Made by a program: the position numbers and the translations under genes
Assembly: GCF_003353065.1 (NCBI RefSeq)
Contig: NZ_CP027806.1
Span: 3,120,501 to 3,184,500 of the forward strand
Direction: 5' to 3'
DNA: 64,000 nt
Source of the DNA: Cyclonatronum proteinivorum
GTDB lineage: Bacteria; Bacteroidota; Rhodothermia; Balneolales; Cyclonatronaceae
Shown: positions 4,688 to 56,704 of the stretch, one piece after another
Position numbering within the stretch: the first letter of the stretch is position 1
Layout: every line of letters begins with the position of its first letter
The notes under the pieces: model-generated
Database searches by the model: none
Told to the model about the DNA's origin: nothing
The model's input: the letters and a program-made list of their open reading frames with translations, nothing else

Positions 4688-5887
4688 TCAGCTCATCCGG
4701 AAATGAAACACCTCGTCCAGGACGGCTTCGATGCGGGCAAACTCAGCCATGCCGAGGTTGCTTCCGCTTGGCAGGCACAGACCGTGCTCGAAGAGCCAGT
4801 CGCTTACACCGTTGCCATAGTGTTTGCTTTCGCTGAATAATGGCTGCAGGTGCATGGGCTTCCAGAGCGGACGCGCCTCAATATTCCGGGCGTCGAGCGC
4901 AAGCCGGATGGTTTCCCGCGTAATGCCACCGGTTTCTTCGGGGTTCACGATAACGGTCGTAAGCCATCGGTTGCTGAAATAGCCTTCGGGCTCCCGCAGA
5001 AAATAAATGCCCGTTGCTGAGGTATTCTGAATGCAAACGGTTCCGTCCCGAAGTTCCGCATCGAGCCAGGTCTCGCCCAGCTTTTTGAAGTACCAGTCGT
5101 GATTGGCACGCCTTGCCTCAATGCGCTCAGGAAGTACCTGCATCTGCCCCCGTCCAATGGCCGCCACCACATTACTCATGCGGTAATTATAGCCCTGCTC
5201 GGAATGCTCATAATGGGGGGCTTCATCTCTTGCCTGTGTGGCCCAAAAGCGGGCTTTCTGAATCAGCTTTTCATCATCAGAAATGAGTGCACCGCCGCCG
5301 GAGGTCGTAATGATTTTATTGCCGTTAAAAGACAAGGCCGCCCCTTTACCAAAGGTACCGGTGTGTTTGCCGTTAATGTGCGACCCGAGGGATTCAGCAG
5401 CATCCTCAAATACAGGGATGCCGTATTTATCCGCAACCGCCATAATGGCCGGCATATTGGAGGGCATACCGTACAGATGAACCGGAATAATTGAAGCTAC
5501 GCGCTTGCCCTGCGCCTGCTGGTCGATAATGGCTTCCTCCAGCTTAACCGGACACATATTCCAGGTCTCCAGCTCACTGTCAACAAAAACCGGCGTAGCA
5601 CCCTGTAGTAATACGGAGTTTGCCGTAGCTACAAAGGTAAAGGACTGACATAGCACTACATCCCTCCGCTCAACCCCTAACAATCGCTGCCCTATATGAA
5701 TGGCGGCGGAACCTGAGCCGAGTACGGAACAATGCCCCGCTCCGGTATAAGAGCGAAGATCCTGCTCAAAATCACCGATATGCGGACCTACAGGCGCAAC
5801 CCAGTTGGTATCAAAGGCTTCCTGTACGAATTTTATTTCCTGTCCTCCCATATGCGGGGAGGATAACCAAATTTTGGGTTCTGACAT
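4688..5887 (-). CDS. DegT/DnrJ/EryC1/StrS-family PLP-dependent sugar aminotransferase
   Basis: At 399 residues this is full length for sugar-nucleotide aminotransferases, which transfer an amino group to a keto-sugar nucleotide. It starts KIWLSSPHMGGQE. The PLP-binding Lys lies in SFNGNKIITTSGGGAL (about residue 186), and the Asp that contacts the pyridine nitrogen is in FEDAAESLGS. The NGNKIITT lysine box and overall layout resemble PglE-like 4-amino sugar-forming enzymes. This predicts a role in making an N-acetylated amino sugar for surface glycans. It is separated from the main glycan locus and flanked by repeats. The substrate cannot be told from sequence alone. Confidence 0.88.
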   Translation of the reverse strand: MSEPKIWLSSPHMGGQEIKFVQEAFDTNWVAPVGPHIGDFEQDLRSYTGAGHCSVLGSGSAAIHIGQRLLGVERRDVVLCQSFTFVATANSVLLQGATPVFVDSELETWNMCPVKLEEAIIDQQAQGKRVASIIPVHLYGMPSNMPAIMAVADKYGIPVFEDAAESLGSHINGKHTGTFGKGAALSFNGNKIITTSGGGALISDDEKLIQKARFWATQARDEAPHYEHSEQGYNYRMSNVVAAIGRGQMQVLPERIEARRANHDWYFKKLGETWLDAELRDGTVCIQNTSATGIYFLREPEGYFSNRWLTTVIVNPEETGGITRETIRLALDARNIEARPLWKPMHLQPLFSESKHYGNGVSDWLFEHGLCLPSGSNLGMAEFARIEAVLDEVFHFRMS

Positions 5888-6189: not shown

Positions 6190-7002
6190 TCAGCAGCTCT
6201 GCCGACCCGTGATATAGCCCACATGCTCTTTGAGCGCGCGTTCCAGCAGGTCAATATTGCGGGATGAAGGCCTGAAGCGCCGCCACCAGCGGGACGGAGC
6301 TTCGGGGGATTTCCGGTTCAGGAAGGAAGCGGGAGCTGCTATCGGATTGCTGCCGGTTTGGGCAAACAGCATGACCGCCCTGCGCTGATGCAGGGCCGAG
6401 CTTGAAATCAGCACCGGTTGCCCCGCTCCGAAAGCCTGACGAAAAGCCTGCGCCTCTTCACAGGTGTTGCGCGGCGTATGCAATCGGCTGATGCGCTCAT
6501 CCGGCACCCCAAGGGCTACCGCTGCCTGCGCAACCGCTTCAGCCTGCGTCATTTGTCCCTCAAATCCGCTTGCTGAGCTTACCAGCCGTACGGGGATTTC
6601 CCGGGCGTCAAACACGCGGTAGAGCCGCACGCCTTCAACCAACCGCTCAAGCACCGAAGCACTTAAGCGCGAAGTAGGGCTCAGCCTCGGATCTGTGGAA
6701 TGCCCCGCACCCAGCACAATAATATAAAGGCTGTCGGCGCCGGAGTCCTGAAAAGCAGCTTTTACAGCCGCTATACCGTCTTCATCAATGACCGAATAGC
6801 GGTTCTCGAGACCGTCAGCCAGAAATTCAGGCAGCCAGGGGAGACCATAGAGCAGCAGCAGCGCGACAAAAAGCAAGACCGCCCGTCTCGCCCATTTCAG
6901 CTTCCCCATCACGACCATGACGCCCGTCAACACGAGCAGCAAAATCAGCTGCGTACCCGGCTGCAGCATGGCATACCCAAAACGCAAAACAGATTCAATC
7001 AA
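6190..7002 (-). CDS. YdcF/ElyC-type DUF218 domain protein
   Basis: This is a 270-residue membrane-anchored protein. Two hydrophobic segments lie in the first 60 residues (LILLLVLTGVMVVMG and AVLLFVALLLLYGLPWL). The DUF218 core follows: SLYIIVLGAGH (about residue 96), RLSASVLERLVEGVRLY, then NTCEEAQAFRQAFG and VLISSSALHQRRAVMLF. ElyC and SanA relatives act in envelope integrity, possibly on lipid-linked glycans; the exact reaction is unsettled. The first codon used here is TTG at 7002; an ATG at residue 12 (6969) is an alternative. It is divergent from the Wzi-like gene. Confidence 0.85.
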   Translation of the reverse strand: MIESVLRFGYAMLQPGTQLILLLVLTGVMVVMGKLKWARRAVLLFVALLLLYGLPWLPEFLADGLENRYSVIDEDGIAAVKAAFQDSGADSLYIIVLGAGHSTDPRLSPTSRLSASVLERLVEGVRLYRVFDAREIPVRLVSSASGFEGQMTQAEAVAQAAVALGVPDERISRLHTPRNTCEEAQAFRQAFGAGQPVLISSSALHQRRAVMLFAQTGSNPIAAPASFLNRKSPEAPSRWWRRFRPSSRNIDLLERALKEHVGYITGRQSC

Positions 7003-12261: not shown

Positions 12262-13145
12262 ATGTTGCGCATAAGGTTCGGTGTCCTGCACAACGGGATC
12301 CTTCGACTTCGCTGGGCTTCGCTCAGGATGACAGCAGCACTCTCTAAGCCACCGGCGCGGCTGGCCGCGCCGTTTGAAGCAAAGCAACCCTGTCATCCTG
12401 AGCGGAGCCGGAACGAAGTGCAGGCGGAGTCGAAGGATCCGGTGTTGTGGGCTCAGGGCACCGCACAACGGGATCCTTCGACTTCGCTGCGCTTCGCTCA
12501 GGATGACAGCAGCACTCTCCAAGCCACCGGCGCGGCTGGCCGCGCCGTTTGAAGCAAAGCAACCCTGTCATCCTGAGCGGAGCCGGTACGAAGTGCAGGC
12601 GGAGTCGAAGGATCCGGTGTTGTGGGCTCAGGGCACCGCACAACGGGATCCTTCGACTTCGCTGCGCTTCGCTCAGGATGACAACAGCACTTTCCAAGCC
12701 ACCGGCGCGGCTGGCCGCGCCGTTTGAAGCAAAGCAACCCTGTCATCCTGAGCGGAGCCGGAACGAAGTGCAGGCGGAGTCGAAGGATCCGGTGTTGTGG
12801 GCTCAGGGCACCGCACAACGGGATCCTTCGACTTCGCTGCGCTTCGCTCAGGATGACAACAGCACTCTCCAAGCCACCGGCGCGGCTGGCCGCGCCGTTT
12901 GAAGCAAAGCAACCCTGTCATCCTGAGCGGAGCCGGTACGAAGTGCAGGCGGAGTCGAAGGATCCGGTGTTGTGGGCTCAGGGCACCGCACAACGGGATC
13001 CTTCGACTTCGCTGCGCTTCGCTCAGGATGACAGCAGCACTCTCTAAGCCACCGGCGCGGCAGGCCGCGCCGGGGTTACTTATGGATTTTGTTGTCATCC
13101 TGATTGTAGCCGGAGCATTGCGGAGGCGGAGTCGAAGGATCTGTT
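12262..13145. repeat. Tandem array of a 175-bp palindromic repeat
   Basis: The string CGTTTGAAGCAAAGCAACCC recurs at 12371, 12546, 12721 and 12896, exactly 175 bp apart. Each unit is a large imperfect palindrome: a GGATCCTTCG...CTCAGGATGACA arm, a central perfect stem CGGCGCGG-CTGG-CCGCGCCG, and an opposing TGTCATCCTGAGC...GAAGGATCC arm. Copies differ by only a few bases, which points to recent amplification. The ORFs that run through both strands at this period are artefacts of the repeat. Confidence 0.9.
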
Positions 13146-17278: not shown

Positions 17279-18421
17279 CTAAGACAAGCTTTCCTCTATC
17301 AACTTCCCAAGCTGTGGGCTCGTCATGAACTCGACATCCGGCCATTTTTTTGATATTTGAGAAAGCAGTTCCGAAAACATCTTAAGATTTCTGTCTCTGT
17401 TTTCGCGATTGATGTACCCGACAAAATTTAACCGATGTGCTGTAATGATGGCCGGCTTTTTCCAGAAGAAAGCATTTTTAATGTCTTTTAGACATTCTCC
17501 AACACTGTCAAAATTCTGCGGCATTTGGGACGGCTCAAACACACAGTTTCTGACCAGAAAGGTTTGCCCTGACTTGTTTTTTTCACCCGTATAATGCCTG
17601 ACCATTTCGCGTTCGGACTTGTCAAGAATGGGATGCTTCTGATACTTCATCCCCTGAATGTATTTTACCCTCAGCTCCGACAGCTTTTGAAGCAAATCAG
17701 AATGTATGATAAAATTGGTTGCGATATAAGATTCTGAAGTAAATCCGAACAGTTCCTGAAAGCCCTGCATCCCCTCCTGCAGGTAAGTTTTTTGATGCTC
17801 AAGATCGGCGTAATTGTGTGTGTCAAGAGCAGCCTGCAGATTTATGCTGCCTTTTGCAGCATCAGTTGCTTTTAGAGTCCAAGTAGCGAAAGCGTAAATT
17901 TTCCGGTAGTCAGATTCCGGATTCTGCAGTTCGGCCAGCCAATACTTCCAGTTAACATGCTCCCTTCCATGAAATTGCGGAAAAAAGATGTGTTTATTTA
18001 TGCCGGATTTCCACAACTCAAAACATTTCGCATGCGCATCATACCTCTTAAACGTTTCTGTAATAGGCTCCCAGTAGTACTCTTGATAATCGTTTTCCTT
18101 TATTCGATTAAAATCCGGATTTGCAGTAACACAATTAGCCGTGATTACAGGAGAATTTCCGTTGACGTCTTTGAATGTAAGAAGCACATTAAAGAGCTTC
18201 TGCAAATCTTCTTCCGATGCCAAAGCATCATTGCGTGCATAAGGACATTTATCAACTGCATACCCCAAATTTAGCAACTGCTGATACACGGAAGCATTAG
18301 GCATGCGGATAGCCCCCCAATCATCTGACTCGATCACGATGATCTTCCTGTCTGTTTTCCAGCCCTTACGGTTCACATCGTGACGGGCTAAGGCTGATCT
18401 GATACTGTTAAAACTAAACAC
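17279..18421 (-). CDS. Polysaccharide deacetylase-like protein (ESDDWG family)
   Basis: This protein of about 380 residues shares its plan with the gene at 47871-48986: VIESDDWGAIRMP near the N-terminus, FHGREHVNWKYWL in the middle and ITAHRLNFVGYIN near the end. The paired Asp, the HxxxH-like HGREH and the late His fit a NodB-like metal-dependent deacetylase, but standard NodB motifs are not exact. This is therefore a fold-level guess; it may remove acetyl groups from a glycan intermediate. A GTG at 18421 overlaps the upstream acetyltransferase stop by 8 bases; the frame also extends to a GTG at 18445. No signal peptide is evident. Confidence 0.6.
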   Translation of the reverse strand: MFSFNSIRSALARHDVNRKGWKTDRKIIVIESDDWGAIRMPNASVYQQLLNLGYAVDKCPYARNDALASEEDLQKLFNVLLTFKDVNGNSPVITANCVTANPDFNRIKENDYQEYYWEPITETFKRYDAHAKCFELWKSGINKHIFFPQFHGREHVNWKYWLAELQNPESDYRKIYAFATWTLKATDAAKGSINLQAALDTHNYADLEHQKTYLQEGMQGFQELFGFTSESYIATNFIIHSDLLQKLSELRVKYIQGMKYQKHPILDKSEREMVRHYTGEKNKSGQTFLVRNCVFEPSQMPQNFDSVGECLKDIKNAFFWKKPAIITAHRLNFVGYINRENRDRNLKMFSELLSQISKKWPDVEFMTSPQLGKLIEESLS

Positions 18422-18914
18422 GCTTTCGCTTCCCAAGTTTCTCACATGTTATACCACCATAAACCGTCCACGGTTCAAGATTCTGCTTAACAATCGTATT
18501 CGGCTCGGTCATAGCACCTTCGCCGATGGTTACTCCCGGATAAATGATGCTGTTTATGCCAATGTAAGCGTAGGCGTGAATCTCGACCCTTGCGCGGGTG
18601 ATTTTTCTTTTTTCGGCTGGGACTTTTGGAAGCGAAAGGTAGCCGCCATAGATATCATCGCTGCCGGTGAGGATTTTTACGCCGTAGGATATATCCACAT
18701 AGTCTTGGATGTAGGCCTCACCGCCACCGGTTATCATCGCATAGGGTGCAAGACGGGAATATTTGCCGATTTTGGTGTAGGTACCGGCAAGCACAAAGCA
18801 GAAGTCGCTTATAACAGCGTAATCATCCAGTAGCAGATGTTCCGGTTGAATGATGCGTGCCATTGGGTAAATTTCGGCTTCTTTTCCTTTGTAAAGCAAC
18901 GGAAGGTTTTCCAT
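18414..18914 (-). CDS. Left-handed beta-helix acetyltransferase
   Basis: At 166 residues with hexapeptide-repeat character (ARIIQP, DYAVIS, TKIGKY, IQDYVDISYGVKI, AYIGINSIIYPGVTIGEG), this is a trimeric O- or N-acetyltransferase like those that decorate sugars in capsule loci. A loop of about 20 residues (DDIYGGYLSLPKVPAEKRK) interrupts the helix, as in WbbJ/CysE-like sugar acetyltransferases. Its start overlaps the stop of the next upstream gene by one base (TGATG), so translation is probably coupled. The acceptor sugar is unknown. Confidence 0.85.
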   Translation of the reverse strand: MENLPLLYKGKEAEIYPMARIIQPEHLLLDDYAVISDFCFVLAGTYTKIGKYSRLAPYAMITGGGEAYIQDYVDISYGVKILTGSDDIYGGYLSLPKVPAEKRKITRARVEIHAYAYIGINSIIYPGVTIGEGAMTEPNTIVKQNLEPWTVYGGITCEKLGKRKRV

Positions 18915-19573
18915 CAGCCTTTAGTGGATTTAAGGACAGCGATGATTTTTTCCTTGTAACGATAGAAAACCGTCTCATCATCGCCCACATTTTTTTCAAG
19001 AATCATACCGGCCATGATTTTATTCCGATTACCAACCTTAATCCCCGGTATCGTAGCACTGTTAATCCCAAACAGATTGCCGTCACCTACTTGGGTGCCT
19101 CCGGAAAAACAAACATTCGGGCTCAGGAAATTGAAATTTCCGATCTTCGTATCATGTCCAATACTGCATCGGGCATTAATCATATTGAATGCACCAATTG
19201 TTGTCATAGGACCCAAATTAACGTTAGGTGCAATGACAGAGCCAGTTCCGATTATGGCACTTTCTGCTACATAGGCAGACGGATGTACAAAAGTCAGGAA
19301 TGTTGCACCCGCGTCTATGAACCGCTGCGTAATCGGCGCACGATATTTCAGATTGGCAATACCGACAATATACTGCACGTCATTCTGCACTTCATGCTCC
19401 GATATGTTGCCAAGAAAGGGGCAGTCAAAATGATATTGATCGTAGGCTTTGGGATTATCGTCAATTACTCCAGTAAGCTGTATTTTAGAAACCCCGACAC
19501 GATTGGCATAACGGATATATTCATCAAGCTCAGCGGCGTGGCCACCCCCGCCAATTATAATAACACTCGACAT
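18914..19573 (-). CDS. NeuD/PglD-like sugar O- or N-acyltransferase
   Basis: This 219-residue protein has an N-terminal Rossmann-like nucleotide-sugar-binding domain (VIIIGGGGHAAELDEYI) and a C-terminal left-handed beta helix from about residue 95. Within that helix ARCSIGHDTKIGNFNFLSP carries the catalytic His and NVCFSGGTQVGDGNLFG follows. This is the layout of PglD and NeuD, which acetylate UDP-4-amino sugars or sialic acid. Together with the DegT aminotransferases it suggests an acylated amino sugar. The adjacent ACP/KAS III set raises the possibility of a non-acetyl acyl donor. Confidence 0.88.
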   Translation of the reverse strand: MSSVIIIGGGGHAAELDEYIRYANRVGVSKIQLTGVIDDNPKAYDQYHFDCPFLGNISEHEVQNDVQYIVGIANLKYRAPITQRFIDAGATFLTFVHPSAYVAESAIIGTGSVIAPNVNLGPMTTIGAFNMINARCSIGHDTKIGNFNFLSPNVCFSGGTQVGDGNLFGINSATIPGIKVGNRNKIMAGMILEKNVGDDETVFYRYKEKIIAVLKSTKG

Positions 19574-19656: not shown

Positions 19657-20379
19657 TTAATTGGCAGGTGCATTTAATGTATGGTCATTAATCATGTGAA
19701 CTATATCAGGGTGCCCCAAATAACCTCTTAACTCATCTTTCAAAGGATATCCACTTTTAAGTGCTTTGTAAATTGATTCCCTTATTTTCTGCCAATCTTT
19801 ATGTCTGAATGCTACGGATGCAGGTATCTGTTCCAGTTTCAATGCCCTTGCAATTGCAAGCCTGTGGTTGCCTGTCATGAAATATAGTTCTCCTTGAGCA
19901 CCTATTCCGATAGAGAAAAAATCAATATTCGAAGTCGTCTTATATGGAACTATAATTTTCCCTTGCCCAAATTGTTCAAACATAACTCTATATTTATTTT
20001 TTAGTGATACTATTTTATCTAGCGCTGCATCATTCTTTGTTTTTTTGTTTAATAAATAATGAAAATAAGCTGTTTCATTCGGTTTAGTATCATGGACATA
20101 CAACTCTTCAAAAGTCTTTTCTAGCACTAATACATATTCTCTGAGGGGATTTATGTGTGCTATTGGCTTATATAAAACGAAATGTTTTAAACGCCATCCC
20201 CCCATTTGGTTAAACGTACTCCCCTCAACACTTAATTTTATATCAAAAGGATTAATATTTATATAGGTGCTATACACTCTAGGCAAACTTTTAAACCAAA
20301 GTTTATTTACATTAAATATTAAATACCCAATAAAGCTATAAAGTAGTTTTTTCCCTTTGAATAAAAAATTTTTTATCAT
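19657..20379 (-). CDS. ParB/sulfiredoxin-like protein of glycan locus
   Basis: This is a 240-residue protein without a confident family name. The recognisable part is FFSIGIGAQGELYFMTGNHRLAIARAL (read in two halves around residue 165-190): a GNHRLA box like the GxHRxxA motif of ParB/Srx-fold proteins. A basic N-terminus with one hydrophobic stretch (LLYSFIGYLIFNV) may touch the membrane. A second protein with the same box and length is at 58277-59008. Both occur beside glycan genes, so a role in sugar or phosphate transfer is more likely than DNA partitioning; no function can be assigned. Confidence 0.6.
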   Translation of the reverse strand: MIKNFLFKGKKLLYSFIGYLIFNVNKLWFKSLPRVYSTYININPFDIKLSVEGSTFNQMGGWRLKHFVLYKPIAHINPLREYVLVLEKTFEELYVHDTKPNETAYFHYLLNKKTKNDAALDKIVSLKNKYRVMFEQFGQGKIIVPYKTTSNIDFFSIGIGAQGELYFMTGNHRLAIARALKLEQIPASVAFRHKDWQKIRESIYKALKSGYPLKDELRGYLGHPDIVHMINDHTLNAPAN

Positions 20380-20464: not shown

Positions 20465-21232
20465 TTAAACCGAATAACCTCCGTCCACTACCAAATTTAT
20501 CCCTGTGACCCACCTTGCCCCTGGGCTGAGTAAATACAGTACCGCAGCAGCTACATCATCGGGATGTCCGAGACCCAACGGATGCATGCTTTCGATGCGC
20601 TCACGAGCTGCTTCATTTTTGCTGTACACCGCCTGCTCTGACATTGGTGTTACAACCACTCCGGGCGAAATACAGTTAACCCGGATACGCTTAGTTGCCA
20701 ATTCCACGGCCATTGATCGCGATGCCGCTAACAGGGCGCCTTTAGAAGAACTATACATGGTTTTCCCTGCTTCTCCCAGGCTACCCATAACCGATGAAAT
20801 AAGTACTATGCTTTGTCCTTCCTCAGGAACCATTTTCTTTCGGCTGACCCATTTTGCCATGTGAATAGCCGAGACTACGTTTGTGTTCAGCATTTCGGTT
20901 AGCGCTTCCGGTTTAATATTTCTCAACGGCAGTGTAGTTGAAATACCGGCGCTGTGAAGGAAGCCATCAATTTTGATGCCCTGGTTCTCTAACTCCTTCA
21001 TACACTCATCGACTTTTACATAATCGGTGAGATCAAGCGATATTGAAATGTGATCCTGGGTATGCTTAGTTAGAGATGATCGTGTTTCTTCAAGACGTTC
21101 TTCATTTCGTCCTATTAGAATAATGCGTGCACCAGCCTCACTACATGCAATGGCACAGGCGCGTCCTATGCCGGATGATGCGCCCGTGATAAGAATGGTT
21201 TTGTTATGCAGACCAAATCGTTGTTCTATCAT
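20465..21232 (-). CDS. SDR-family oxidoreductase, FabG-like
   Basis: This 255-residue classical short-chain dehydrogenase has TGASSGIGRACAI for NAD(P) binding at residue 16, HSAGIS, the catalytic Ser in LISSVMGSLGEAG and YSSSKGALLAASRSM carrying YxxxK. It ends with VTGINLVVDGGYSV, typical of 3-oxoacyl-ACP reductases. It starts three bases after the KAS III stop and follows an ACP gene, so reduction of an ACP-bound 3-ketoacyl chain is the best guess. Reduction of a keto-sugar remains possible. Confidence 0.85.
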   Translation of the reverse strand: MIEQRFGLHNKTILITGASSGIGRACAIACSEAGARIILIGRNEERLEETRSSLTKHTQDHISISLDLTDYVKVDECMKELENQGIKIDGFLHSAGISTTLPLRNIKPEALTEMLNTNVVSAIHMAKWVSRKKMVPEEGQSIVLISSVMGSLGEAGKTMYSSSKGALLAASRSMAVELATKRIRVNCISPGVVVTPMSEQAVYSKNEAARERIESMHPLGLGHPDDVAAAVLYLLSPGARWVTGINLVVDGGYSV

Positions 21233-21235
21233 ATC

Positions 21236-22309
21236 TCAGTATTCCTCAGCTTCTAATTCAATCAGATCAGGTATGTGGCATGGCCCGGTGTTCAGAATTC
21301 CGGTAGCCCATGACATACCAACCCCGAATCCACACAAAAGCAGACGCTGCGGCTGCTTTAAGGCTTCCTGAAGCTCTGTAGCAATTGCCAGTGGTATAGA
21401 TACAGACGAGGTGTTTCCAAAACGGTCGAGATTGGTTGGTACCCGCTCATCGGGCAGCTTTAATTTCTTCGAAAGATAGCTGTTCATATAAATGTTGGCC
21501 TGATGCAATACAAAGTAATCAATCGCCTCTTTCTCTGTTTGTGCGAAGGCAAGCGTTTCTTTGATGTTCTTAGGAACCTCACGAATTGCAAAGTTAAACA
21601 CATCAGCACCATTCATATACCCGTGCTCATCGGTACGGATGTTACCGTGCTCATCTACTACCTTTTCTTTAAGGGTCTCGGGCGTACTGGGATTCCGATA
21701 TCCGCCGGCATCCATTTTGATTAAATCCTGCCTTGAACCATCCGAATTGAGAGAAAAACAGCTTTTTCCATAGCGCTCATCCCGGCTTATCAATGCTGCA
21801 ACGCCACCATCTCCAAACAAAAAACCTGTTTTACGGTCTTTAGGATGATAGACTCTCGAACGGGTTTCCCCGTCAAGCAGCAGCACATGCCGGAAACCCT
21901 GCTGCTGCATAAAGGAATAGGCCACGGACAGCCCATATACGAAAGCCGAACAACCCAAATTAATATCAAATGCTAAGGTAGATTTCGGCAGTCCCAGCTT
22001 ATCCTGCAAAATAACAGAAGTTGCCGGCATGCGGTAATCCGGGGTTTGGGATACAAAAATGACGGCATCAATTTCTTCCCGGCTGATCTGCATGTCGTTT
22101 AAGAGCTTGTCAGCAGCTGCAAAGCACAGATCTGAGGCCGTCATACCCTTCGGGGCAAACCTGCGCTGCCGGATACCCGTTTTTTCAACAATCTGCTTCA
22201 CATCCTCGGCCGGAAAATGCATGGTATATGCTTCATTTTCGATGGTGTTGGCCGGCACGGCAGCAGCAAGACCGGAAATGCCAATGTTTTCAAAAGTTAA
22301 AAAAGCCAT
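21236..22309 (-). CDS. 3-oxoacyl-ACP synthase III (KAS III) homologue
   Basis: At 357 residues, this condensing enzyme keeps the full triad: Cys in INLGCSAFVYGL (about residue 116), His in FVLHQANIYMNSYL and Asn in RFGNTSSVSIPLAI. The C-terminal GFGVGMSWATGI is typical of the KAS III subset found in natural-product and O-antigen loci rather than housekeeping FabH. With the ACP upstream and SDR downstream it probably makes a short 3-hydroxyacyl chain that an acyltransferase such as the NeuD-like protein attaches to a sugar. Confidence 0.9.
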   Translation of the reverse strand: MAFLTFENIGISGLAAAVPANTIENEAYTMHFPAEDVKQIVEKTGIRQRRFAPKGMTASDLCFAAADKLLNDMQISREEIDAVIFVSQTPDYRMPATSVILQDKLGLPKSTLAFDINLGCSAFVYGLSVAYSFMQQQGFRHVLLLDGETRSRVYHPKDRKTGFLFGDGGVAALISRDERYGKSCFSLNSDGSRQDLIKMDAGGYRNPSTPETLKEKVVDEHGNIRTDEHGYMNGADVFNFAIREVPKNIKETLAFAQTEKEAIDYFVLHQANIYMNSYLSKKLKLPDERVPTNLDRFGNTSSVSIPLAIATELQEALKQPQRLLLCGFGVGMSWATGILNTGPCHIPDLIELEAEEY

Positions 22310-22349
22310 TCAGTTATCGGTGGTTTGGAGTATGCAGAAAAGAAATCTT

Positions 22350-22577
22350 TTAGGAAGCCTGTTCCTGTACAGCTTTAAATAAATCGCCAACTGTTTTGAG
22401 CTGCTGAAAAGCTTCATCTTCAACAGCTGCACCAAACTCTTCATCAAGTGCGGCAATTAGAGACAGCTGTGCAAGGGAGTCCCACTCCTCATATTCCCGA
22501 AAATCATCTTCCAGGCTGACTTCACGGTCTTCAATTTCAAGGGCTTCTTTGAATACGTCTAAGAATTTTTCTTTCAT
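22350..22577 (-). CDS. Acyl carrier protein
   Basis: This 75-residue acidic helical protein has the phosphopantetheine attachment Ser in EYEEWDSLAQLSLI (about residue 37, DSL motif). The ATG at 22577 is chosen; a longer frame reaches into the palindrome of the neighbouring IS remnant and its extra residues are hydrophobic and unlike ACP. It is a dedicated ACP for the KAS III and SDR encoded just downstream. Confidence 0.88.
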   Translation of the reverse strand: MKEKFLDVFKEALEIEDREVSLEDDFREYEEWDSLAQLSLIAALDEEFGAAVEDEAFQQLKTVGDLFKAVQEQAS

Positions 22578-22615: not shown

Positions 22616-22653
22616 ATTCCATTGCCCATGATTTAAATCATGGGCAATGGAAT
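22616..22653. repeat. 38-bp perfect palindrome, left end of IS200-like remnant
   Basis: A perfect inverted repeat is centred between 22634 and 22635, with core CCCATGATTTAAATCATGGG. It matches in style the longer palindrome at 23116-23169. IS200/IS605 elements carry such hairpins at their ends. Confidence 0.85.
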
Positions 22654-22654
22654 C

Positions 22655-23109
22655 CTAAGACTCATCATAGCCATGTAATTTTAAAAATCGCTCATACTCA
22701 TATTGAGAATTGATTTTCTGATGATGGCTCTTCTGATTTCTAATATACCGAAAAACTTGTGGTACACCAGATTCAGAAACCGCAAAGGCGGCATAACCCG
22801 TCTGCCAGGCGAACGCTTCTTGGGTCAGCTTGTTGTAATTGATGAAGCGGGAGCTGCTACCCTTCACCTGCTTAATGATGGATGCAATTGATAGCGTAGG
22901 GCTCTGCAAAAACAGGCAATGCACATGATCAGGCATGCCGTTCACAATCCGAACCGGACAGCCCTGTGCCCTTAGCTGCTCCGAGATAAAACTCTAACAC
23001 CTGCTTTTCAATGCTCTCATGAATAAACGGGTACCGGTGCTTGGTCGCCCAGTCGCCCAGATGGCGTGAATCCATATTTTGGTATACGAATGCGGCATTG
23101 TGAATCATT
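22655..23109 (-). pseudogene. IS200/IS605-type (Y1) transposase, frameshifted remnant
   Basis: The intact 3' part (22655-22945) reads NGMPDHVHCLFLQ, giving the HUH metal motif as HVH, and later FRYIRNQKSHHQK with the catalytic Tyr, which identifies a TnpA of the REP/IS200 family. The 5' part can be read from ATG at 23109 only by crossing two frameshifts. One is an 8-bp tandem duplication of TGGGCGAC near 23045-23060, the other an extra T near 22990 (GAGTTTTATC for GAGTTTATC). So the gene is broken. It lies between the ACP gene and the sugar transferase gene, framed by palindromes. Confidence 0.85.
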
Positions 23110-23115
23110 TATATG

Positions 23116-23169
23116 CGAAATCACACCCATAGCCCACGATTTAAATCGTGGGCTATGGGTGTGATTTCG
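23116..23169. repeat. 54-bp perfect palindrome, right end of IS200-like remnant
   Basis: A perfect inverted repeat is centred between 23142 and 23143 (core AGCCCACGATTTAAATCGTGGGCT). It provides the last few codons and the stop of the sugar transferase gene, so insertion of the element changed that protein's C-terminus. Confidence 0.85.
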
Positions 23170-23752
23170 TCCCCATAAACTCCGGCATCGTCGCTGCCTG
23201 CTGATTGCTAATGCCCTCCCTCCGAAATACCTTGAGCAGCGTCATAAACAAAATTTTCATATCCAGCCAAAAGCTCAGGTTATCGACATACCAGACATCA
23301 AGCTTAAATTTCTCTTCCCAACTTATGGCGTTTCGGCCGTTGACCTGTGCCCAGCCCGTTATACCAGGTTTAACTTCATGTCTGCGGGCTTGCTCCTCTG
23401 TGTAGCGGTCCAGGTAACGCACAAGAAGCGGTCTGGGGCCGACCAGACTCATGTCACCTTTCAAAACGTTAAACAATTGGGGTAGTTCATCAATAGAAAG
23501 AGAACGTACCAATTTGCCAACAGTAGTAAGTCGCTGACTGTCCGGCAGAAGTTTACCTGATGGATCTGTTCGGTCGTTCATAGTTTTGAACTTGATAACT
23601 TTAAAGGACCGACCGAAAAGACCGGGCCGCTGTTGCGTAAAAAACGGACTTCCATGATTTACCACGGTGAGCAGCACTACAACTATTACATAAACTGGTG
23701 TAAGAAATAGAATAAGGAGCAGAGATGCCAGGCTGTCAATAAACCGTTTCAT
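23153..23752 (-). CDS. Initiating sugar-phosphate transferase, PglC-like
   Basis: This 199-residue protein is a small monotopic phosphoglycosyl transferase that moves a sugar-1-phosphate onto undecaprenyl phosphate to start a repeat unit. An N-terminal re-entrant hydrophobic helix (LLLILFLTPVYVIVVVLL) is followed by QQRPGLFGRSFKVIKFKTM, SIDELPQLFNVLKGDMSLVGPRP and PGITGWAQVNGRNAISWEEK, the standard motifs with the DE catalytic pair. ATG at 23752 is preferred over a TTG five codons upstream. The stop codon sits inside the adjacent 54-bp palindrome, so the native C-terminus may have been replaced. Confidence 0.92.
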   Translation of the reverse strand: MKRFIDSLASLLLILFLTPVYVIVVVLLTVVNHGSPFFTQQRPGLFGRSFKVIKFKTMNDRTDPSGKLLPDSQRLTTVGKLVRSLSIDELPQLFNVLKGDMSLVGPRPLLVRYLDRYTEEQARRHEVKPGITGWAQVNGRNAISWEEKFKLDVWYVDNLSFWLDMKILFMTLLKVFRREGISNQQAATMPEFMGTKSHP

Positions 23753-23791
23753 GTATTTACGATACAATATTCTACTCCTTCTACAACACTG

Positions 23792-34081: not shown

Positions 34082-34690
34082 TTAGGCTAACTCATTAATT
34101 ATGTATGTCGAGTATTTACTCAGCTCTATGTTATTGAATGCTAGAAAGCCAATTTTACTATCTTTAGCTGCTTCGTAGTCATTTATCGAGTCACCAATAA
34201 GCACACAGCTATCAGTTTCTAATCTTTCCTCTTCAATGATTGACTTTACCCAATCTTTCTTGGGCGTAGGTGAACCATGTATGCGCTTGAAATATGTTTC
34301 TATACCATGTGCTTTACATAAAAACCTGAGCTCTTCCTGATCAGAACCAGAGACTATATACATTGGGATTTTTGCATGATTACGTTTAATATAATTCAAG
34401 GTTTCCTGTATCTGTAGAGTAGGATCTGTAAGGAGCTCCCTCATAATAATCGAAAAGCGATTAGCCCACTGCTGTATTTCTTCAACGGTAATTGTTTCTC
34501 CCCGAATATTTTCAAAGAAATACCTGAACTTGACATATCGAGACAATCCCCCGTTTTGCTGATGAAAGGCAAGAAGTTGCTCTACTTCTGCAGCTGAGTA
34601 TTCTTTTAAAACCTCAGCAAAGCCTTTTTCCCGTATTTGATTGGAGTCCAAAAGGACTCCGTCAAAGTCCCAGAAAATTGATTTAATCAC
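34082..34690 (-). CDS. HAD-superfamily phosphatase (module A)
   Basis: This 202-residue HAD hydrolase has the nucleophile motif FWDFDGVLLDSN at the N-terminus, YIVSGSDQEELRF for motif II, a Lys in HGSPTPKKDW and motif IV CVLIGDSINDYEAA. The cap domain is helical. It is a clear paralogue of 53466-54104, with long identical runs such as QLLAFHQQNGGLSRYVKFRY. It starts at GTG with a four-base overlap with the cytidylyltransferase stop, implying dephosphorylation of a sugar-acid phosphate in the same pathway, as KdsC does for Kdo. Confidence 0.9.
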   Translation of the reverse strand: MIKSIFWDFDGVLLDSNQIREKGFAEVLKEYSAAEVEQLLAFHQQNGGLSRYVKFRYFFENIRGETITVEEIQQWANRFSIIMRELLTDPTLQIQETLNYIKRNHAKIPMYIVSGSDQEELRFLCKAHGIETYFKRIHGSPTPKKDWVKSIIEEERLETDSCVLIGDSINDYEAAKDSKIGFLAFNNIELSKYSTYIINELA

Positions 34691-35388
34691 TTATATCTCT
34701 CTTTATAAATTGGTAGCATAGCTTTTGCGAATTCATAGTCTTCGAACTCATCAATATCAATACCAGCTACCTTTGGTAGGATTGTTTTGAATGGTTTTGC
34801 TCCTAAGAAATAGCCATCTCTTATAGTTGATAACTTATCTCTCATATATAGTCCGTTAGTCACTTTAAAAATATTAGGTAATTCTTGACTAATGGTATGA
34901 TTTTTATCTGCTTGATAATTTAGAGGCTTATCATCTAACCATAAATATTCTTTGATAAGGTTTACACTAACCAAGCTATCATGTCTATCAGTATTTACAA
35001 CATGATTAAAGTAATCTTCAAAGCATTGCTGGAACATTGACTTAGACATGTAAGGAACTACAACGGTGCACCACGCAAAGTGTTTTGTACCAATATCTTT
35101 TACTATTCCGGTAATGACTTCAGAAAAGCTTGCAACATGACCAGTACATAGGTAAGGGTCTCTTTCATGATACCCTACTCCTAAATTCTTTGCAATAGCT
35201 TTTACATTTTCTGAATTAGAACTAATAAGAACCTTCAAATCTTTTCTATAATTGAATATTTCACTTACTTTCCACTCAAGCAACGATACTCCATCTTCTA
35301 TTTCAAGATATATTTTATCTTTTACTCTAGTACTTCCTTCTCTTACTGGAATTATAATAGTTAGTTCATCTTTTAAAAAAGTTTCCAT
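34687..35388 (-). CDS. CMP-sugar synthetase-like cytidylyltransferase (module A)
   Basis: This 233-residue protein is of the acylneuraminate/Kdo cytidylyltransferase type: LTIIIPVREGSTRVKDKIYL is the nucleotide-binding loop (compare ARxGSxRxxxKN in NeuA), then VLISSNSENVKAIAKNLG and the late Asp pair in IDIDEFEDYEFAKAM. ATG at 35388 overlaps the upstream aldolase stop as TGATG and is preferred over a start nine codons further up. It shares little with the module B enzyme at 55118-55831, so the two modules may activate different sugars. Confidence 0.82.
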   Translation of the reverse strand: METFLKDELTIIIPVREGSTRVKDKIYLEIEDGVSLLEWKVSEIFNYRKDLKVLISSNSENVKAIAKNLGVGYHERDPYLCTGHVASFSEVITGIVKDIGTKHFAWCTVVVPYMSKSMFQQCFEDYFNHVVNTDRHDSLVSVNLIKEYLWLDDKPLNYQADKNHTISQELPNIFKVTNGLYMRDKLSTIRDGYFLGAKPFKTILPKVAGIDIDEFEDYEFAKAMLPIYKERYK

Positions 35389-36098
35389 CAATATTCCTTT
35401 TTTATTTTCTCGCAAATACCTGCAAAAAGATTCAAATCAACCGAGTAAGCTATATATCCAAAACCTTTATTTTTGAAGACTTTTATTTTATCGAAACTAT
35501 CTACAAAGGTTCCTAAAACTTTTCCTGATACTTTTACTTTTTTAGCTAATTCTTCAATCGCTTTAACTACTTTTGGATGATCCACTTGACCTGGGTAACC
35601 TAAAGATTGTGACAAATCATAAGGCCCAATAAATAAAACATCAAACCCTTTTAGAGCAAGTATATCATCTATGCAATTCATTCCGCCTTTACCTTCTACT
35701 TGCAGTATAAGTTGCTTAGAATTAGCATTAGATAAATAGATTGATTTTTCTGTTGTTCCAAAATTAGCTGCTTTTACGTAGCAACAAACACCTCTATTTC
35801 CATTAGGAAAAAACTTGGCTGCATCAATAGCTTTCATGGCTTGCTCAACAGAACTTATGTTGGGCACTTGAACCATGTCGGCACCCGAATCAAAAGCACT
35901 ACCAATTTTGTTATGATTGTTTTCTGCAACTCGGACTACCGAAGTCATTCCTCCCATTTTGGTTGCTCTTACATGATTTTGAATGGTAGTTAAATCTAGC
36001 GTACCATGTTCTTGATCAAATATCATAAAGTCTAAGCCTGAATAACTTATCGCCTCTACTAAATTAGAATCAATTGTTTTAGAAAATATTCCTATCAT
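35388..36098 (-). CDS. HpcH/HpaI-type aldolase (module A)
   Basis: This 236-residue TIM-barrel class II aldolase has FDQEHGTLD, VVRVAENN, ADMVQVPNISS, RGVCCYVKAANFG and LQVEGKGGMNCIDDILAL with the metal-binding Glu, then VLFIGPYDLSQSLGYPGQ. These are hallmarks of the HpaI/GarL family that cleaves or forms 2-keto-3-deoxy acids from pyruvate and an aldehyde. It lacks about 20 N-terminal residues found in the paralogue at 55842. It probably acts in the same keto-acid route as the HMGL-type protein upstream. Confidence 0.85.
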   Translation of the reverse strand: MIGIFSKTIDSNLVEAISYSGLDFMIFDQEHGTLDLTTIQNHVRATKMGGMTSVVRVAENNHNKIGSAFDSGADMVQVPNISSVEQAMKAIDAAKFFPNGNRGVCCYVKAANFGTTEKSIYLSNANSKQLILQVEGKGGMNCIDDILALKGFDVLFIGPYDLSQSLGYPGQVDHPKVVKAIEELAKKVKVSGKVLGTFVDSFDKIKVFKNKGFGYIAYSVDLNLFAGICEKIKKEY

Positions 36099-36100
36099 AA

Positions 36101-37642
36101 CTAAATTTGTGAATAAATGGATTGACTTTCTAATTGTTTATAAGACGTTCTCGTCAAACTAATTAATTCAATTTCTGTATTTTTCTTAAATGCTTCAAAA
36201 AGTTGAACATTTTCATTAAACAATTCTTGTTCCTTTTCACTGATTACACCATTATATCCATCATAACCTACTATATATAAACTTTTGAACCCGAATTCTA
36301 ATGCAGTCTGAAATGCAATAGCAGTATGTGAATCCGTAAATTGATCTGTGAACCTGATTTTGCTCAGCTCATAAGCATTATCTTTCATCGAATCAGGAAT
36401 ATAAGTACCCATTTTTCTTGGATAAGGCGGCAGAATACATTTACCCTTTTTAGGTACTGAATATCCAAATACTGATTCTAAGCGATATCCTTCATTACCT
36501 ACCAAACAAAAGTATTGTTGATTAGGCACATTTTTAAAAGACATGGCATTCTTAGAACTTGCGTGAATCACTGCAATTTTCGGGTTATTTTTTAGAAACA
36601 GCTCAATTGCATCTGAATGCTCAACAGGACTTGGACCGCCACCTACAATTAAAGCTGACTTAAAAACCGGCTCTTTTTTAAAATCAAGCAATGGTAACCT
36701 GAAATTATCTTGTTGCCCTTTGCTTGTATTGTTCAATGCCCTAATAATACTGTTGAACGAGTAATATCGCTTGCTCACCCATTCCATCACGTTTTTCTGC
36801 GGCAGGGAGTTGGCACCTGAAACCATGTAAGGCAGGTTGGTTCCCCACTCATAATACTTTTGCAGATCGGTAAACACATCTACGACCCGGCTCAGCGCAT
36901 TAAAATCGAAATCGAGTTTGCCCTGTGCATTCAGTACGGTGAGCAGAAGCTCGGTCTTTAGGTTACCGGCGCCGCGGCCCATGCCGGTAATCGTCGCATC
37001 AACCATGGCACAGCCTTCCTCAATAGCCGTAAGGGTGTTAATAAGCCCAAGCTCCATGTTGTTATGTCCGTGAAATCCGAGGGGGATGTCAACCTTGCTT
37101 TTCACAAGCGCGATCGTGTCCCGAACATCCTGCGGATACACCCCGCCAAAGGAATCAACCATATAAAAAATATCGGCGGCTCCGGCTGCAAGGGGAAGAT
37201 TGTCCAGAAATTCTTTCTGCGAAGCCCAGGTTGACATATACATCACATTGAACCCGACTTCAAAACCAAGTTTCTTTACTTCTTTGGCCAGCACAACCGC
37301 CCGTTCAAAGTTTTTAGGATCAATAGCAATCCGAACCATATCCACAAGTCCGGCAATCGGCTTAAGCAGCGGTTCAGCATCTTCAGCCCTTACATCCTTC
37401 TCATTCAGGATAATAACCAGCTTTTTATTGCTCAGAGATTTGATTTGCTGCAATACAGGTACCGGGCAATAAAAATACTCGCCAAGATACCCTTTCATCG
37501 GATTTGATCGGTAACCCACTTCCAAGTACTCAACCGGCAAATGGTTAAACGCTTCGAAATAAGTTTTGACGGTTTCTTTGCTAAAGTCCCAGTTGGTGTA
37601 GTAGCCACCGTCTCGTAAGGTGCAATCAAGAATATTGAACAT
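36101..37642 (-). CDS. HMGL-type aldolase fused to GT42/DUF115-like domain (module A)
   Basis: This 513-residue protein has two parts. Residues 1-300 form a DRE-TIM metallolyase: LDCTLRDGGYYTNWDF, GFHGHNNMELGL with metal ligands, DATITGMGRGAGNLKTE, as in 4-hydroxy-2-oxovalerate aldolases. Residues about 325-513 are a second domain with ALIVGGGPSPVEH, FCLVGNEGYRLESVFG, PPYPRKMGTYIP and SLYIVGYDGYNG, a GPS plus late GYDGY pattern recalling GT42 sialyltransferases and DUF115 proteins. The first part is nearly identical in DNA to 57351-58237, while the second is diverged and AT-rich. It probably condenses pyruvate with a sugar aldehyde. Confidence 0.82.
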   Translation of the reverse strand: MFNILDCTLRDGGYYTNWDFSKETVKTYFEAFNHLPVEYLEVGYRSNPMKGYLGEYFYCPVPVLQQIKSLSNKKLVIILNEKDVRAEDAEPLLKPIAGLVDMVRIAIDPKNFERAVVLAKEVKKLGFEVGFNVMYMSTWASQKEFLDNLPLAAGAADIFYMVDSFGGVYPQDVRDTIALVKSKVDIPLGFHGHNNMELGLINTLTAIEEGCAMVDATITGMGRGAGNLKTELLLTVLNAQGKLDFDFNALSRVVDVFTDLQKYYEWGTNLPYMVSGANSLPQKNVMEWVSKRYYSFNSIIRALNNTSKGQQDNFRLPLLDFKKEPVFKSALIVGGGPSPVEHSDAIELFLKNNPKIAVIHASSKNAMSFKNVPNQQYFCLVGNEGYRLESVFGYSVPKKGKCILPPYPRKMGTYIPDSMKDNAYELSKIRFTDQFTDSHTAIAFQTALEFGFKSLYIVGYDGYNGVISEKEQELFNENVQLFEAFKKNTEIELISLTRTSYKQLESQSIYSQI

Positions 37643-47870: not shown

Positions 47871-48986
47871 CTATGTATGAATTATACGACCAAGATGTGA
47901 AGAGGACATAAACTCCGTTTCAGGCCATTTTTTTAATACTGCACGCAATAATCGGCCAAGTTCATTTAAACCGTGTGATCTGTTCTTTGTATTGAGTGAA
48001 CCGATATAGTTACACCGATGTGAACTTATAATTGCAGGTTTATTATATTTAAAAGCCATTTCGATTTCCTTTAGGCAGCTGTCAACATGGTCTTTATTCA
48101 TACCCTGATTGGGTTCAAAAAATGCGTTACGGGTTAAGTATGTTTGACCAAGTTTGTTTTTTTTACCGATATACCTAAAATGCTTCTTTGTTTTTTTATT
48201 ACCTAGCACCTCATGATGAATTTTGGGAGTGGATATGTATTTAATTCCACCCTCATGCGTGCCTTCCTCAACTGCAGAATTAATTTTACCGTTTGGTGGC
48301 ACAAAAAAGCGTGCCTTATACCCATGGACCTGCTCAAACAGACTTAACCCGTCTTTAATAATTTTAACCTGTTCCGAAATATCTTCCGGATACTCAACAT
48401 CATAAGGGGCCTGGAAATTAACTCCACCTGTTTTAGATGAGCTGAATGCCCAAAGTCCTTCATCAAAAGCCAGGCGGGTTTCATTATCACCCCGCTTGAG
48501 GCTTCGCATCCATGCTACTACATTCAGGTGCTCCCGTCCATGGTATTCCGGAACAAAGACATTTTCCTCTCTGCCCTTTTTCCATAGATCAAAGGCTCCG
48601 GTACGTCCGTATCGTTCAAGCGTTTTAGTGAATGCTTCATAATGATAATTCTGAAAGTCTGCATCTCTGATTTTGTCAAAATCAGGATTAGCGGGAAGAC
48701 TCATGGCCGTAAAACAAGCAGGATTTCCGTTATGGTCTTTATAAGAATGTAGCACCTCAAAAAGTCCGGTCAGATCATTACTGTCTGCGAGCGTATCATT
48801 CAGGTTGTATCTTGATGAATCACCGGCCCGCAAATTAAGCCCTTTTTGCTCAAGCTTATCCAGACTTTGTAATGATGGCATACGGATGCTGCCCCAGTCA
48901 TCCGATTCAATAACAACAATTTTCTTCCTCGTTGAATAACCTGGGATATTGCTAATTGTTCGTATTGCATACTTTAATAGTTTCAT
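47871..48986 (-). CDS. Polysaccharide deacetylase-like protein (ESDDWG family), second copy
   Basis: This 371-residue paralogue of the protein at 17279-18421 shares IVVIESDDWGSIRMPSLQSL, ANPDFDKIRDADFQNYHYEA, PEYHGREHLNVVAWM, TYLTRNAFFEPNQGMN and IISSHRCNYIGSLNTKNR. The Asp pair and His residues are kept in both, supporting an enzyme, probably a metal-dependent deacetylase. No export signal is visible, so it would act on cytoplasmic lipid-linked or nucleotide-linked sugars. The start overlaps the upstream GT stop by four bases. Confidence 0.62.
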   Translation of the reverse strand: MKLLKYAIRTISNIPGYSTRKKIVVIESDDWGSIRMPSLQSLDKLEQKGLNLRAGDSSRYNLNDTLADSNDLTGLFEVLHSYKDHNGNPACFTAMSLPANPDFDKIRDADFQNYHYEAFTKTLERYGRTGAFDLWKKGREENVFVPEYHGREHLNVVAWMRSLKRGDNETRLAFDEGLWAFSSSKTGGVNFQAPYDVEYPEDISEQVKIIKDGLSLFEQVHGYKARFFVPPNGKINSAVEEGTHEGGIKYISTPKIHHEVLGNKKTKKHFRYIGKKNKLGQTYLTRNAFFEPNQGMNKDHVDSCLKEIEMAFKYNKPAIISSHRCNYIGSLNTKNRSHGLNELGRLLRAVLKKWPETEFMSSSHLGRIIHT

Positions 48987-53465: not shown

Positions 53466-54104
53466 TTAATAATTCAGGTCTAAAATGAATGTTGTTTTTG
53501 AATCGAGTTCTTCTGTTCCATTGTACGACATGAAATGCATTCCGTTTACTGAAGCTGCCTCATGATCATTGATAGAGTCCCCGACGAGTATACACTTTCC
53601 GGATTCCAGCTTTTCTTCTTTTAAGATCGTACCTACCCACTCTTTTTTAGGCGTTGGGGATCCATGGATTCGCTTAAAATAGGAGGCTATACCATGCGCC
53701 TTACACAAGAACCGTAGCTCTTCCTGATCAGAACCCGATACAATATACATGTGAACGCGCGTATGGTTTCGCCGGACGTAATTTATGGTTTCCTGTATTT
53801 GTAGCCCAGAGTCTGTTAACAATTCCCGCATGATTACAGAAAATCGCTCCGCCCATTGTTGTATCTCAGATTCAGATATGCTTACACCCCGGATTTTTTC
53901 AAAAAAATACCTGAACTTAACGTAGCGTGACAAACCCCCGTTTTGCTGATGAAAAGCAAGAAGCTGATCTACTTCTGCTGCAGGGTACTCTTTTAAAACC
54001 TCAGCAAAGCCTTTGTCCCGTATTTCATTCGAGTTCAGAAGAACTCCGTCGAAATCCCAAAAAATGGCTTGAAGGTCTGAAAGTTCTGTGTGTGTTGGGC
54101 TCAT
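53466..54104 (-). CDS. HAD-superfamily phosphatase (module B)
   Basis: This 212-residue paralogue of 34082-34690 has IFWDFDGVLLNSNEIRDKG, YIVSGSDQEELRFLCKAHG and CILVGDSINDHEAA for the HAD motifs. Long stretches are identical between the two, while the C-terminal 30 residues differ. The N-terminus is some 10 residues longer. It would remove the phosphate from the keto-sugar acid of module B. Confidence 0.9.
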   Translation of the reverse strand: MSPTHTELSDLQAIFWDFDGVLLNSNEIRDKGFAEVLKEYPAAEVDQLLAFHQQNGGLSRYVKFRYFFEKIRGVSISESEIQQWAERFSVIMRELLTDSGLQIQETINYVRRNHTRVHMYIVSGSDQEELRFLCKAHGIASYFKRIHGSPTPKKEWVGTILKEEKLESGKCILVGDSINDHEAASVNGMHFMSYNGTEELDSKTTFILDLNY

Positions 54105-54131
54105 TTTAAAGTTTGATTTAAAATATCTGAA

Positions 54132-55073
54132 TTAATGCCTTGTTTTTGCCCATTCAATCATTTTGTTCATTCCTTCCGTGAAGTCAACTTTTGGCTCCCA
54201 CTTGATCGCTCTGACTGCCTTCCCTGGTCTTCCGTAAATACCAAACTGATCACCGGGCGTATTGCCTTCAAATCTGACCGATATCTCTTTTTCGGCCTTT
54301 TCTTTAATGAAGGTCACGATTTCTCCAACAGTTGTTTTTTGACCCGTGCAAATGTTAAGTGTCATGTTAGCAGCTTCTATGAGTTCTTTTTCAGTAGCCG
54401 AAAAAGCCCGGACTACATCATCGATATACACAAAATCCCTGAAACGATCTGCGCTGCCTTTCACATGTATATTGCCGTAACGCAATGCCTGCGCCAAAAA
54501 GATACTGACCATCCCCTGCCGCAGATTTTCAAGGTTTTGACCAGGCCCGTAAACATTGAACAATCGTAATGCTGCGGTGCCAATTCCGTATTGCTGCGTA
54601 AAGATTCGAAGGTAATGTTCACTTGCGAGTTTCCCGATGCCGTAAAATGATTTGGGAGCCGGCTGAATACCATCCTCATTCACCGGCAGTGCAGCTTCCT
54701 CAACATCCCCGTAAACCGACATGCTTGAGGCGTATATAAATTTTCGGCATCCTGTTTTCACACACATCTGAAGCAGCTGTAGCGTACTCTGCGTGTTCGT
54801 TTGAAGGTCATACACCGGGTCATCATAACTTACCTCACCCGAACTTTGACCCGCAATATGATATACAGCATCGAATTTCCATTGATATAAACGATCAATT
54901 ACAGACTGGTCCTGACAATTTCCTTTAATGAATACGGCGCCTTTTGGTATGGCGTCTGCAAATCCGGTTGAGAGATTATCAACCGTTATTACGGTGTGAC
55001 CATCTTCCAGTAAAGAGGCCGCGAGCTGACTTCCGATAAAACCCGCTGCGCCTGTTACAAGATATGTTTTCAA
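54132..55073 (-). CDS. NAD-dependent nucleotide-sugar epimerase/dehydratase
   Basis: This 313-residue extended SDR has YLVTGAAGFIGSQLAASL at the start, YHIAGQSSGEVSYDDPVYD, ASSMSVYGDVEE, catalytic YGIGK and LRLFNVYGPGQNLENLRQGM. It resembles GalE-like C4 epimerases. It lies inside module B, between the cytidylyltransferase and HAD genes, and has no counterpart in module A; it may supply a specific sugar for that module. The apparent start codon is TTG at 55073. Confidence 0.88.
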   Translation of the reverse strand: MKTYLVTGAAGFIGSQLAASLLEDGHTVITVDNLSTGFADAIPKGAVFIKGNCQDQSVIDRLYQWKFDAVYHIAGQSSGEVSYDDPVYDLQTNTQSTLQLLQMCVKTGCRKFIYASSMSVYGDVEEAALPVNEDGIQPAPKSFYGIGKLASEHYLRIFTQQYGIGTAALRLFNVYGPGQNLENLRQGMVSIFLAQALRYGNIHVKGSADRFRDFVYIDDVVRAFSATEKELIEAANMTLNICTGQKTTVGEIVTFIKEKAEKEISVRFEGNTPGDQFGIYGRPGKAVRAIKWEPKVDFTEGMNKMIEWAKTRH

Positions 55074-55117
55074 AATAGCTTATATAGTCTTTTAATGGTT
55101 TTCATTTTCCGGTTAGG

Positions 55118-55831: not shown

Positions 55832-55841
55832 GATGCGCTGT

Positions 55842-56618: not shown

Positions 56619-56704
56619 TTAGATGTAACAAGATTAGGGATGAATGCTCAGCGCAGTGATGTATTGTATCATCAGTGCAAGCCGGTGAAAAGATTTAGCA
56701 AAGA

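Follow-up and report, generated by a model that had tools for sequence, protein, structure and literature searches.

A set of three genes in a surface-glycan locus of Cyclonatronum proteinivorum, encoding an ACP, a single ketoacyl-ACP synthase III (KAS III) and a FabG-like SDR, probably serves as a private, one-round type II fatty-acid module whose 3-hydroxyacyl product, most likely 3-hydroxybutanoyl, would be placed on N4 of UDP-QuiNAc4N to give the first sugar loaded by a PglC-like enzyme. This reading is built on the genes themselves, their catalytic residues, their conserved order and their co-occurrence, all of which are observed. The source genome is one contig of 4.29 Mb, and the window, i.e. 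the whole stretch of DNA analysed, comprises 64 000 nucleotides of it (positions 3120501–3184500). On the minus strand, the order is PglC-like gene, apparent IS200/REP-type remnant, ACP, KAS III, SDR, 240-aa protein, NeuD/PglD-like gene, hexapeptide gene and 388-aa protein. The features that bear on the argument are as follows.

23153..23767, minus strand: PglC-like phosphoglycosyl transferase (PF02397)
22350..22577 (ORF reaches 22622), minus strand: ACP with a WDSL phosphopantetheine motif (PF00550, 41.4 bits)
21236..22309, minus strand: KAS III, the single KAS of the set (PF08545, 73.7 bits; PF08541, 90.3 bits)
20465..21232, minus strand: FabG-like SDR, predicted 3-oxoacyl-ACP reductase (PF13561, 194.2 bits)
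19657..20379, minus strand: 240-aa protein between the SDR and NeuD genes, without a Pfam family
18914..19573, minus strand: predicted NeuD/PglD-like left-handed beta-helix N-acyltransferase (TIGR03570, below cut-off)
18414..18914, minus strand: second hexapeptide acyltransferase, possible alternative acceptor enzyme (PF00132)
17279..18445, minus strand: 388-aa protein with a NodB/CE4 deacetylase-like predicted fold (structure model)
6190..7002, minus strand: DUF218 (YdcF/ElyC-like) protein beside the aminotransferase (PF02698)
4688..5887, minus strand: PglE-like 4-aminotransferase (best PDB match, 1o61 series)

The first-pass annotation of this DNA had placed ACP, KAS III and FabG-like SDR genes at positions 20465–22577, and all three are found there on the minus strand with Pfam matches above the curated cut-offs, the intergenic gaps being 40 bp between the ACP and KAS III genes and 3 bp between the KAS III and SDR genes. 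The condensing triad described as complete is so, the residues aligned with C112, H244 and N274 of Escherichia coli FabH being retained in the KAS III; the DSL motif ascribed to the ACP is seen as WDSL in an alignment with homologues and E. coli AcpP; and the claimed reductase retains the Ser, Tyr and Lys aligned with those of E. coli FabG, scoring below the cut-offs of the NCBIfam models listed. Translation of the ACP most likely starts at the internal Met at 22577, since most of the aligned homologues begin there. The NeuD-like gene had been called adjacent to the set; it is indeed nearby, but it does not directly adjoin it, as the 240-aa gene intervenes. The only relative of this 240-aa protein detected outside the window was a 30 % match in locus L053, about 10 kb from the cassette of that locus. 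Within the window, the product of 19657–20379 and that of 58277–59008, each of about 240 aa, have in common a G-[NH]-H-R-L-A motif, presumably reminiscent of ParB-like domains, and the latter has Pfam matches below cut-off only. Between the PglC and ACP genes (window ~22616–23167) lies an apparent decayed IS200/REP-type transposase gene, the remnant of which (22655–22945) scores below model cut-offs; two palindromes flank it, one of them overlapping the 3' end of the PglC gene.

The possibility that the window KAS III is the sole housekeeping FabH of the genome had been named in advance as an objection. This is ruled out by a plsX-fabH-fabD-fabG-acpP-fabF cluster elsewhere in the genome, at ~2.99 Mb, and the identification of the window KAS III as the housekeeping FabH was rejected, since the FabH of the fab cluster is a separate protein. 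Compared with their E. coli counterparts, the FabH and FabG of the fab cluster are 43 % and 51 % identical, respectively, whereas the window KAS III and SDR are each 30 % identical. The whole genome contains five matches to PF08541 and two to PF00550, the window ACP being one of the latter.

To describe the conservation of the cassette we used a table of 23 loci, which combined 15 loci from a scan of named genomes with those of the 10 genomes, among 392 sampled from the phylum, that carry the KAS at E <= 1e-100, with repeats removed and the window included; L053 is the same locus as L008, and L046 the same as L017, each being counted once. An ACP gene lies upstream of the KAS III gene within 0.9 kb in all 23 loci and within 104 bp in 17 of them, and an SDR gene is near the KAS gene in 22, the exception being L009, in which the contig ends 1.1 kb past the KAS gene. 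The order ACP-KAS-SDR is kept in 21/23 loci (L051 has ACP-SDR-KAS), and the recurrence of this arrangement across the 23 loci argues that the grouping of the three genes is not due to chance. A PglC copy at least 54 % identical to that of the window is present within 6 kb of the KAS gene in 16/23 loci, the window included. For aminotransferases of 50 % identity or more to the product of 4688–5887, the corresponding figure is 6/23; flank lengths differ among loci, so that absence within 6 kb carries less weight for L009, L012 and L049. In L092 and L093, two of the four loci (L090–L093) from genomes G497 and G539 that stand outside the 23-locus table, the genes for PglC, ACP, KAS, SDR, NeuD and aminotransferase are arranged in one row. 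In three single-KAS loci, L017, L019 and L020, the aminotransferases and PGTs encoded within 6 kb are of other types, so that the cassette does not dictate which sugar is used. Distribution is patchy: among 11 genomes of the family, the KAS (E <= 1e-60) was present in two, and the best-listed named relative with the KAS III (78 % identity) is a Balneolales MAG. In a search of plasmids, no KAS protein of at least 60 % identity was found. Small additional ORFs were seen in some cassettes. In three loci (L045:9343–9831, L010:7325–7819 and L018:7830–8297), a gene beside the KAS or SDR gene encodes a protein of about 160 aa; the three resemble one another when inspected by eye, those of L045 and L018, which were tested, have no Pfam family over cut-off, and none was seen in the window; in the two-KAS cassette of L047 (8878–9730), two small unrelated ORFs, by eye MqsA-type zinc-finger-like and DUF4258-like, lie between the ACP and KAS III genes.

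The NeuD-like protein is the candidate partner enzyme of the set. It scores 146.4 bits against TIGR03570 over residues 4–203, below the cut-off of 160.8, and judged by its sequence is thus an outlying member of the PglD/NeuD family with respect to that model. It has the left-handed beta-helix, N-terminal nucleotide-binding domain and catalytic His of such enzymes; its PDB matches by sequence and fold are PerB, VioB and PglD, and Foldseek matched its model (pLDDT 74) to VioB, PglB-AT, PglD, PerB and Pcryo_0637, the C-terminus of the model having a pLDDT below 50 and being uninformative on the pocket. Among the 392 phylum genomes, relatives of this protein (E <= 1e-50) were found in six, all within the 10 KAS carriers. 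When the threshold was relaxed to E <= 1e-18, 37 genomes had matches, the same protein being represented at 47–100 % identity in six and at 26–33 % in the other 31; the seven lowest of these matches were without loci and were not used. A second sample comprised 396 genomes from the class to which G161 belongs; here four genomes had NeuD matches (E <= 1e-35), and the same four were those with KAS matches (E <= 1e-100). The two samples overlap in part, G100 and G161 being common to both. In a phylogenetic tree all 16 PglDs from single-KAS loci, the window included, form one clade (support 97/92). Closest to this clade, but outside it, are the second PglDs of L019 and L020, whereas two-KAS loci have PglDs that are 27–29 % identical to the window NeuD and branch elsewhere; of 24 loci with other PglDs (L066–L089), 22 entered the tree, L072 and L088 being left out for want of a match. 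Among the 21 table loci with a PglD, 16/16 single-KAS loci carry the clade and 5/5 two-KAS loci carry other PglDs. No PglD was found in the remaining two of the 23 loci, among them L011, for which 6 kb on both sides was available. All 16 rows of the clade contain [GS]HD.

Candidates for the remaining functions of a bacillosamine-type route are also encoded by this genome. The best PDB match of the PglC-like protein is N,N'-diacetylbacillosaminyl-1-phosphate transferase (8g1n, E 8.9e-72), and that of the aminotransferase is the 1o61 series (E 1.1e-84), which we take to be Campylobacter jejuni PglE; among NCBIfam models, the aminotransferase scores best against the LegC family, without reaching the cut-off. 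The only strong match of the genome to PF02719 (PglF-type) lies 1.7 Mb away and has as its best PDB match WlaL (5bju), presumably C. jejuni PglF. A PglD/VioB-type acyltransferase and a 4-aminotransferase are therefore both encoded in the window, yet 13 kb separate NeuD from the aminotransferase gene, which follows it in the same orientation. The DUF218 protein beside the aminotransferase has matches in six other cassette loci of those searched, and in L013, from the culturable Flavilitoribacter nigricans, the match is placed between NeuD and the aminotransferase. Since PglC-, PglE- and PglF-like proteins complete such a route, the acyl group is most likely carried on N4 of UDP-QuiNAc4N, and the location of a PglC-type transferase gene next to the set makes it likely that the acylated product is the priming sugar. 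Homologues of all four components of the C. jejuni PglF-PglE-PglD-PglC route are present, and for three of them, the PglF-, PglE- and PglC-like proteins, the closest PDB entry belongs to that route; a difference is that the PglF-like and PglE-like genes here are outside the cassette. To our knowledge, C. jejuni PglD has no ACP, KAS or SDR partner genes. C. jejuni PglD is named as an acetyltransferase in two reports (PMC6519341, PMC8040287).

Our current working hypothesis, the chemistry, chain length, acceptor and order of steps of which we infer, is that the KAS III would condense ACP-bound malonyl with a short acyl primer and the SDR would reduce the 3-oxo product. The PglF-like dehydratase and PglE-like aminotransferase would convert UDP-GlcNAc via the 4-keto sugar to UDP-QuiNAc4N. 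The PglD-like enzyme would then move the hydroxyacyl group from the ACP to N4 of this UDP-2-acetamido-4-amino-2,4,6-trideoxyglucose, and transfer of the acylated sugar phosphate to undecaprenyl phosphate by the PglC-like enzyme would give the glycan its first sugar. As neither a second KAS nor a dehydratase was recognised among the genes of the set, the chain is expected to stop at the 3-hydroxyacyl stage, and a single KAS predicts a single extension and therefore 3-hydroxybutanoyl.

Two systems described previously are of the same type. In Pseudomonas syringae, VioS (a KAS III), VioR, an ACP and VioB go with N-(3-hydroxy-1-oxobutyl) viosamine, a scheme backed by mutants and mass spectrometry, and the glycans of a vioR mutant consist of rhamnose only (PMC3927599). 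The likeness of vioA, vioB, vioS, vioR and acp to the present set thus extends to one KAS III, a reductase, an ACP, a VioB-type enzyme and an N-(3-hydroxybutanoyl) 4-amino-4,6-dideoxy sugar. The P. syringae sugar differs in being a dTDP sugar without a 2-acetamido group and in its position at the distal end of the flagellin glycan (PMC3927599), whereas the PglC-type enzyme suggests that the sugar of the window is a UDP sugar added first. In Flavobacterium psychrophilum, the predicted role of the KAS genes wfpC and wfpE, the ACP gene wfpD, the reductase gene wfpF and the PglD homologue wfpG is the synthesis and transfer of 3,5-dihydroxyhexanoyl, a group itself found by NMR (PMC6519341). As described there, the wfpB–wfpG genes of O-polysaccharide R1 resemble the present set in combining a PglC homologue, ACP, KAS, ketoreductase and PglD homologue within an O-antigen locus, and the acyl group is on N4 of Qui2NAc4N with pglE and pglF supplying the amino sugar, as is proposed here; they differ in having two KAS and a 3,5-dihydroxyhexanoyl group where the window has one KAS, the wfp genes being likened by description and not by sequence. 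The contrast between one KAS in P. syringae and two in F. psychrophilum likewise points to 3-hydroxybutanoyl in C. proteinivorum. ACP and FabG genes are also mentioned in enterobacterial flagellin islands (PMC4875605), whereas PMC11980577 proved to be irrelevant to the question. As expected of a wfp/vio-type sugar N-acylation cassette, the ACP, KAS III and ketoreductase genes are clustered within the glycan locus, retain their catalytic residues and are separate from the housekeeping genes. The suggestion of the first-pass annotation that a short 3-hydroxyacyl group could be placed on an amino sugar gains support by comparison, namely from these precedents, from the separate housekeeping cluster and from the occurrence of close NeuD relatives only in KAS III genomes in both samples.

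One alternative concerns the identity of the acyl group: the set would make a different one, from a branched or longer primer or from acyl-ACP, and the PglD-like enzyme would still attach it to a 4-amino sugar. The window KAS III has Q and K in place of W32 and R36 of E. coli FabH, residues that we take to be CoA contacts, making an acetyl-CoA primer, and chain length with it, unsure. In the same direction, the position of Phe87 is Met in the eight KAS3 rows aligned, and members of the PglD clade accompany differing aminotransferases. Against this, Met at position 87 is likewise bulky, and the single-KAS precedent of P. syringae yields 3-hydroxybutanoyl. We consider another acyl group rather unlikely, and retain 3-hydroxybutanoyl as the preferred product.

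The PglD proteins of the single-KAS loci differ from others at the C-terminus. A G-x-P-[AGV] motif is present there in 0/16 rows of the single-KAS clade versus 27/28 of the other PglDs aligned (counts excluding L081_n and L082_n, which are copies of L047_B and L048_B), and all 16 clade rows have F-x-[RK]-x-K-[EQ]-[KR] instead; the PglDs of the two-KAS loci keep the GxP turn that the window NeuD lacks. In Pcryo_0637, the Asn-Pro bond in the final reverse turn adopts the cis form when CoA is bound and the trans form when it is not (PMC8040287), and, from its place near the chain end, Pro213 of that protein would correspond to the proline of the GxP motif. Loss of GxP suggests a changed donor site in the single-KAS PglD clade. 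It may be, though we put this forward tentatively and as the less probable outcome, that with replacement of the turn the clade no longer binds acyl-CoA and accepts only its partner ACP. As proof of ACP use, however, loss of GxP was rejected on three grounds: LpxA (7oj6), a user of acyl-ACP, has GNPA at the turn; the two-KAS PglDs retain GxP; and the L090 and L091 proteins, which are clade-like (46–48 % identical) and outside the tree, end in the in-between sequence GQKPR.

A second alternative assigns the acyl group to the other hexapeptide protein (18414–18914), which would use it for O- or N-acylation, the NeuD-like enzyme acting as an ordinary acetylating enzyme. Its gene directly follows the NeuD-like gene, and sister locus L008 has a copy conserved at 75 %; in the regions retrieved, however, window and L008 are the only two of the 23 loci that have it, as against 16/23 for the NeuD clade, which in the samples searched occurs only in cassette genomes. 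On the ground of that low count it was rejected as the partner enzyme, and we regard this alternative as very improbable. A third possibility, a secondary lipid or polyketide module unlinked to the glycan, deserves hardly any credence: many pathways make use of a KAS III, an SDR and an ACP, and KAS proteins of 36–42 % identity occur on the best 20 of 54 plasmids matched, mostly from Azospirillum, but the close PglC copies and the PglD clade, each in 16/23 loci, speak for a link to glycan synthesis.

The locus has further features. The model of the 388-aa protein (pLDDT 84.8) has as its best PDB match 3rxz, a polysaccharide deacetylase (E 3.1e-7), and D41, D42, H159 and H163 (DD, HxxxH) are invariant in eight aligned rows; relatives are present in 11/23 loci, the window included, with flanks of unequal length. 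The products of 17279–18445 and 47871–48986 are related, neither having a Pfam family over cut-off. Between glycan genes, at window 12288–13072, a 175-bp unit is repeated in tandem 4.5 times with 98 % matches. One gene block is present twice, at window 34082–37642 and 53466–58246, with content that by eye is HAD-like, nucleotidyltransferase-like, HpcH-like aldolase and a 513-aa aldolase-like protein; the two 513-aa proteins look near-identical in their N-terminal part and diverge afterwards.

Systems of this type have been described in Flavobacterium and Pseudomonas; what is new is the single-KAS, PglC-linked form in a Balneolales-like genome and in other Bacteroidota. In searches that covered part of the literature, no listed title reported the cassette in Balneolales or one KAS beside PglC. 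The biological interest of such N-acyl groups is indicated by F. psychrophilum, in which genes responsible for the N-acyl (R) group have an effect on LPS antigenicity (PMC6519341). The remodelled PglD clade offers a direct test case for the choice between CoA and ACP donors in sugar acyltransferases; should its restriction to a partner ACP prove true, the glycan acyl group could be read from sequence through the number of KAS and the PglD clade, and a rule linking these two features to acyl chain length would allow glycan decorations to be predicted from genomes.
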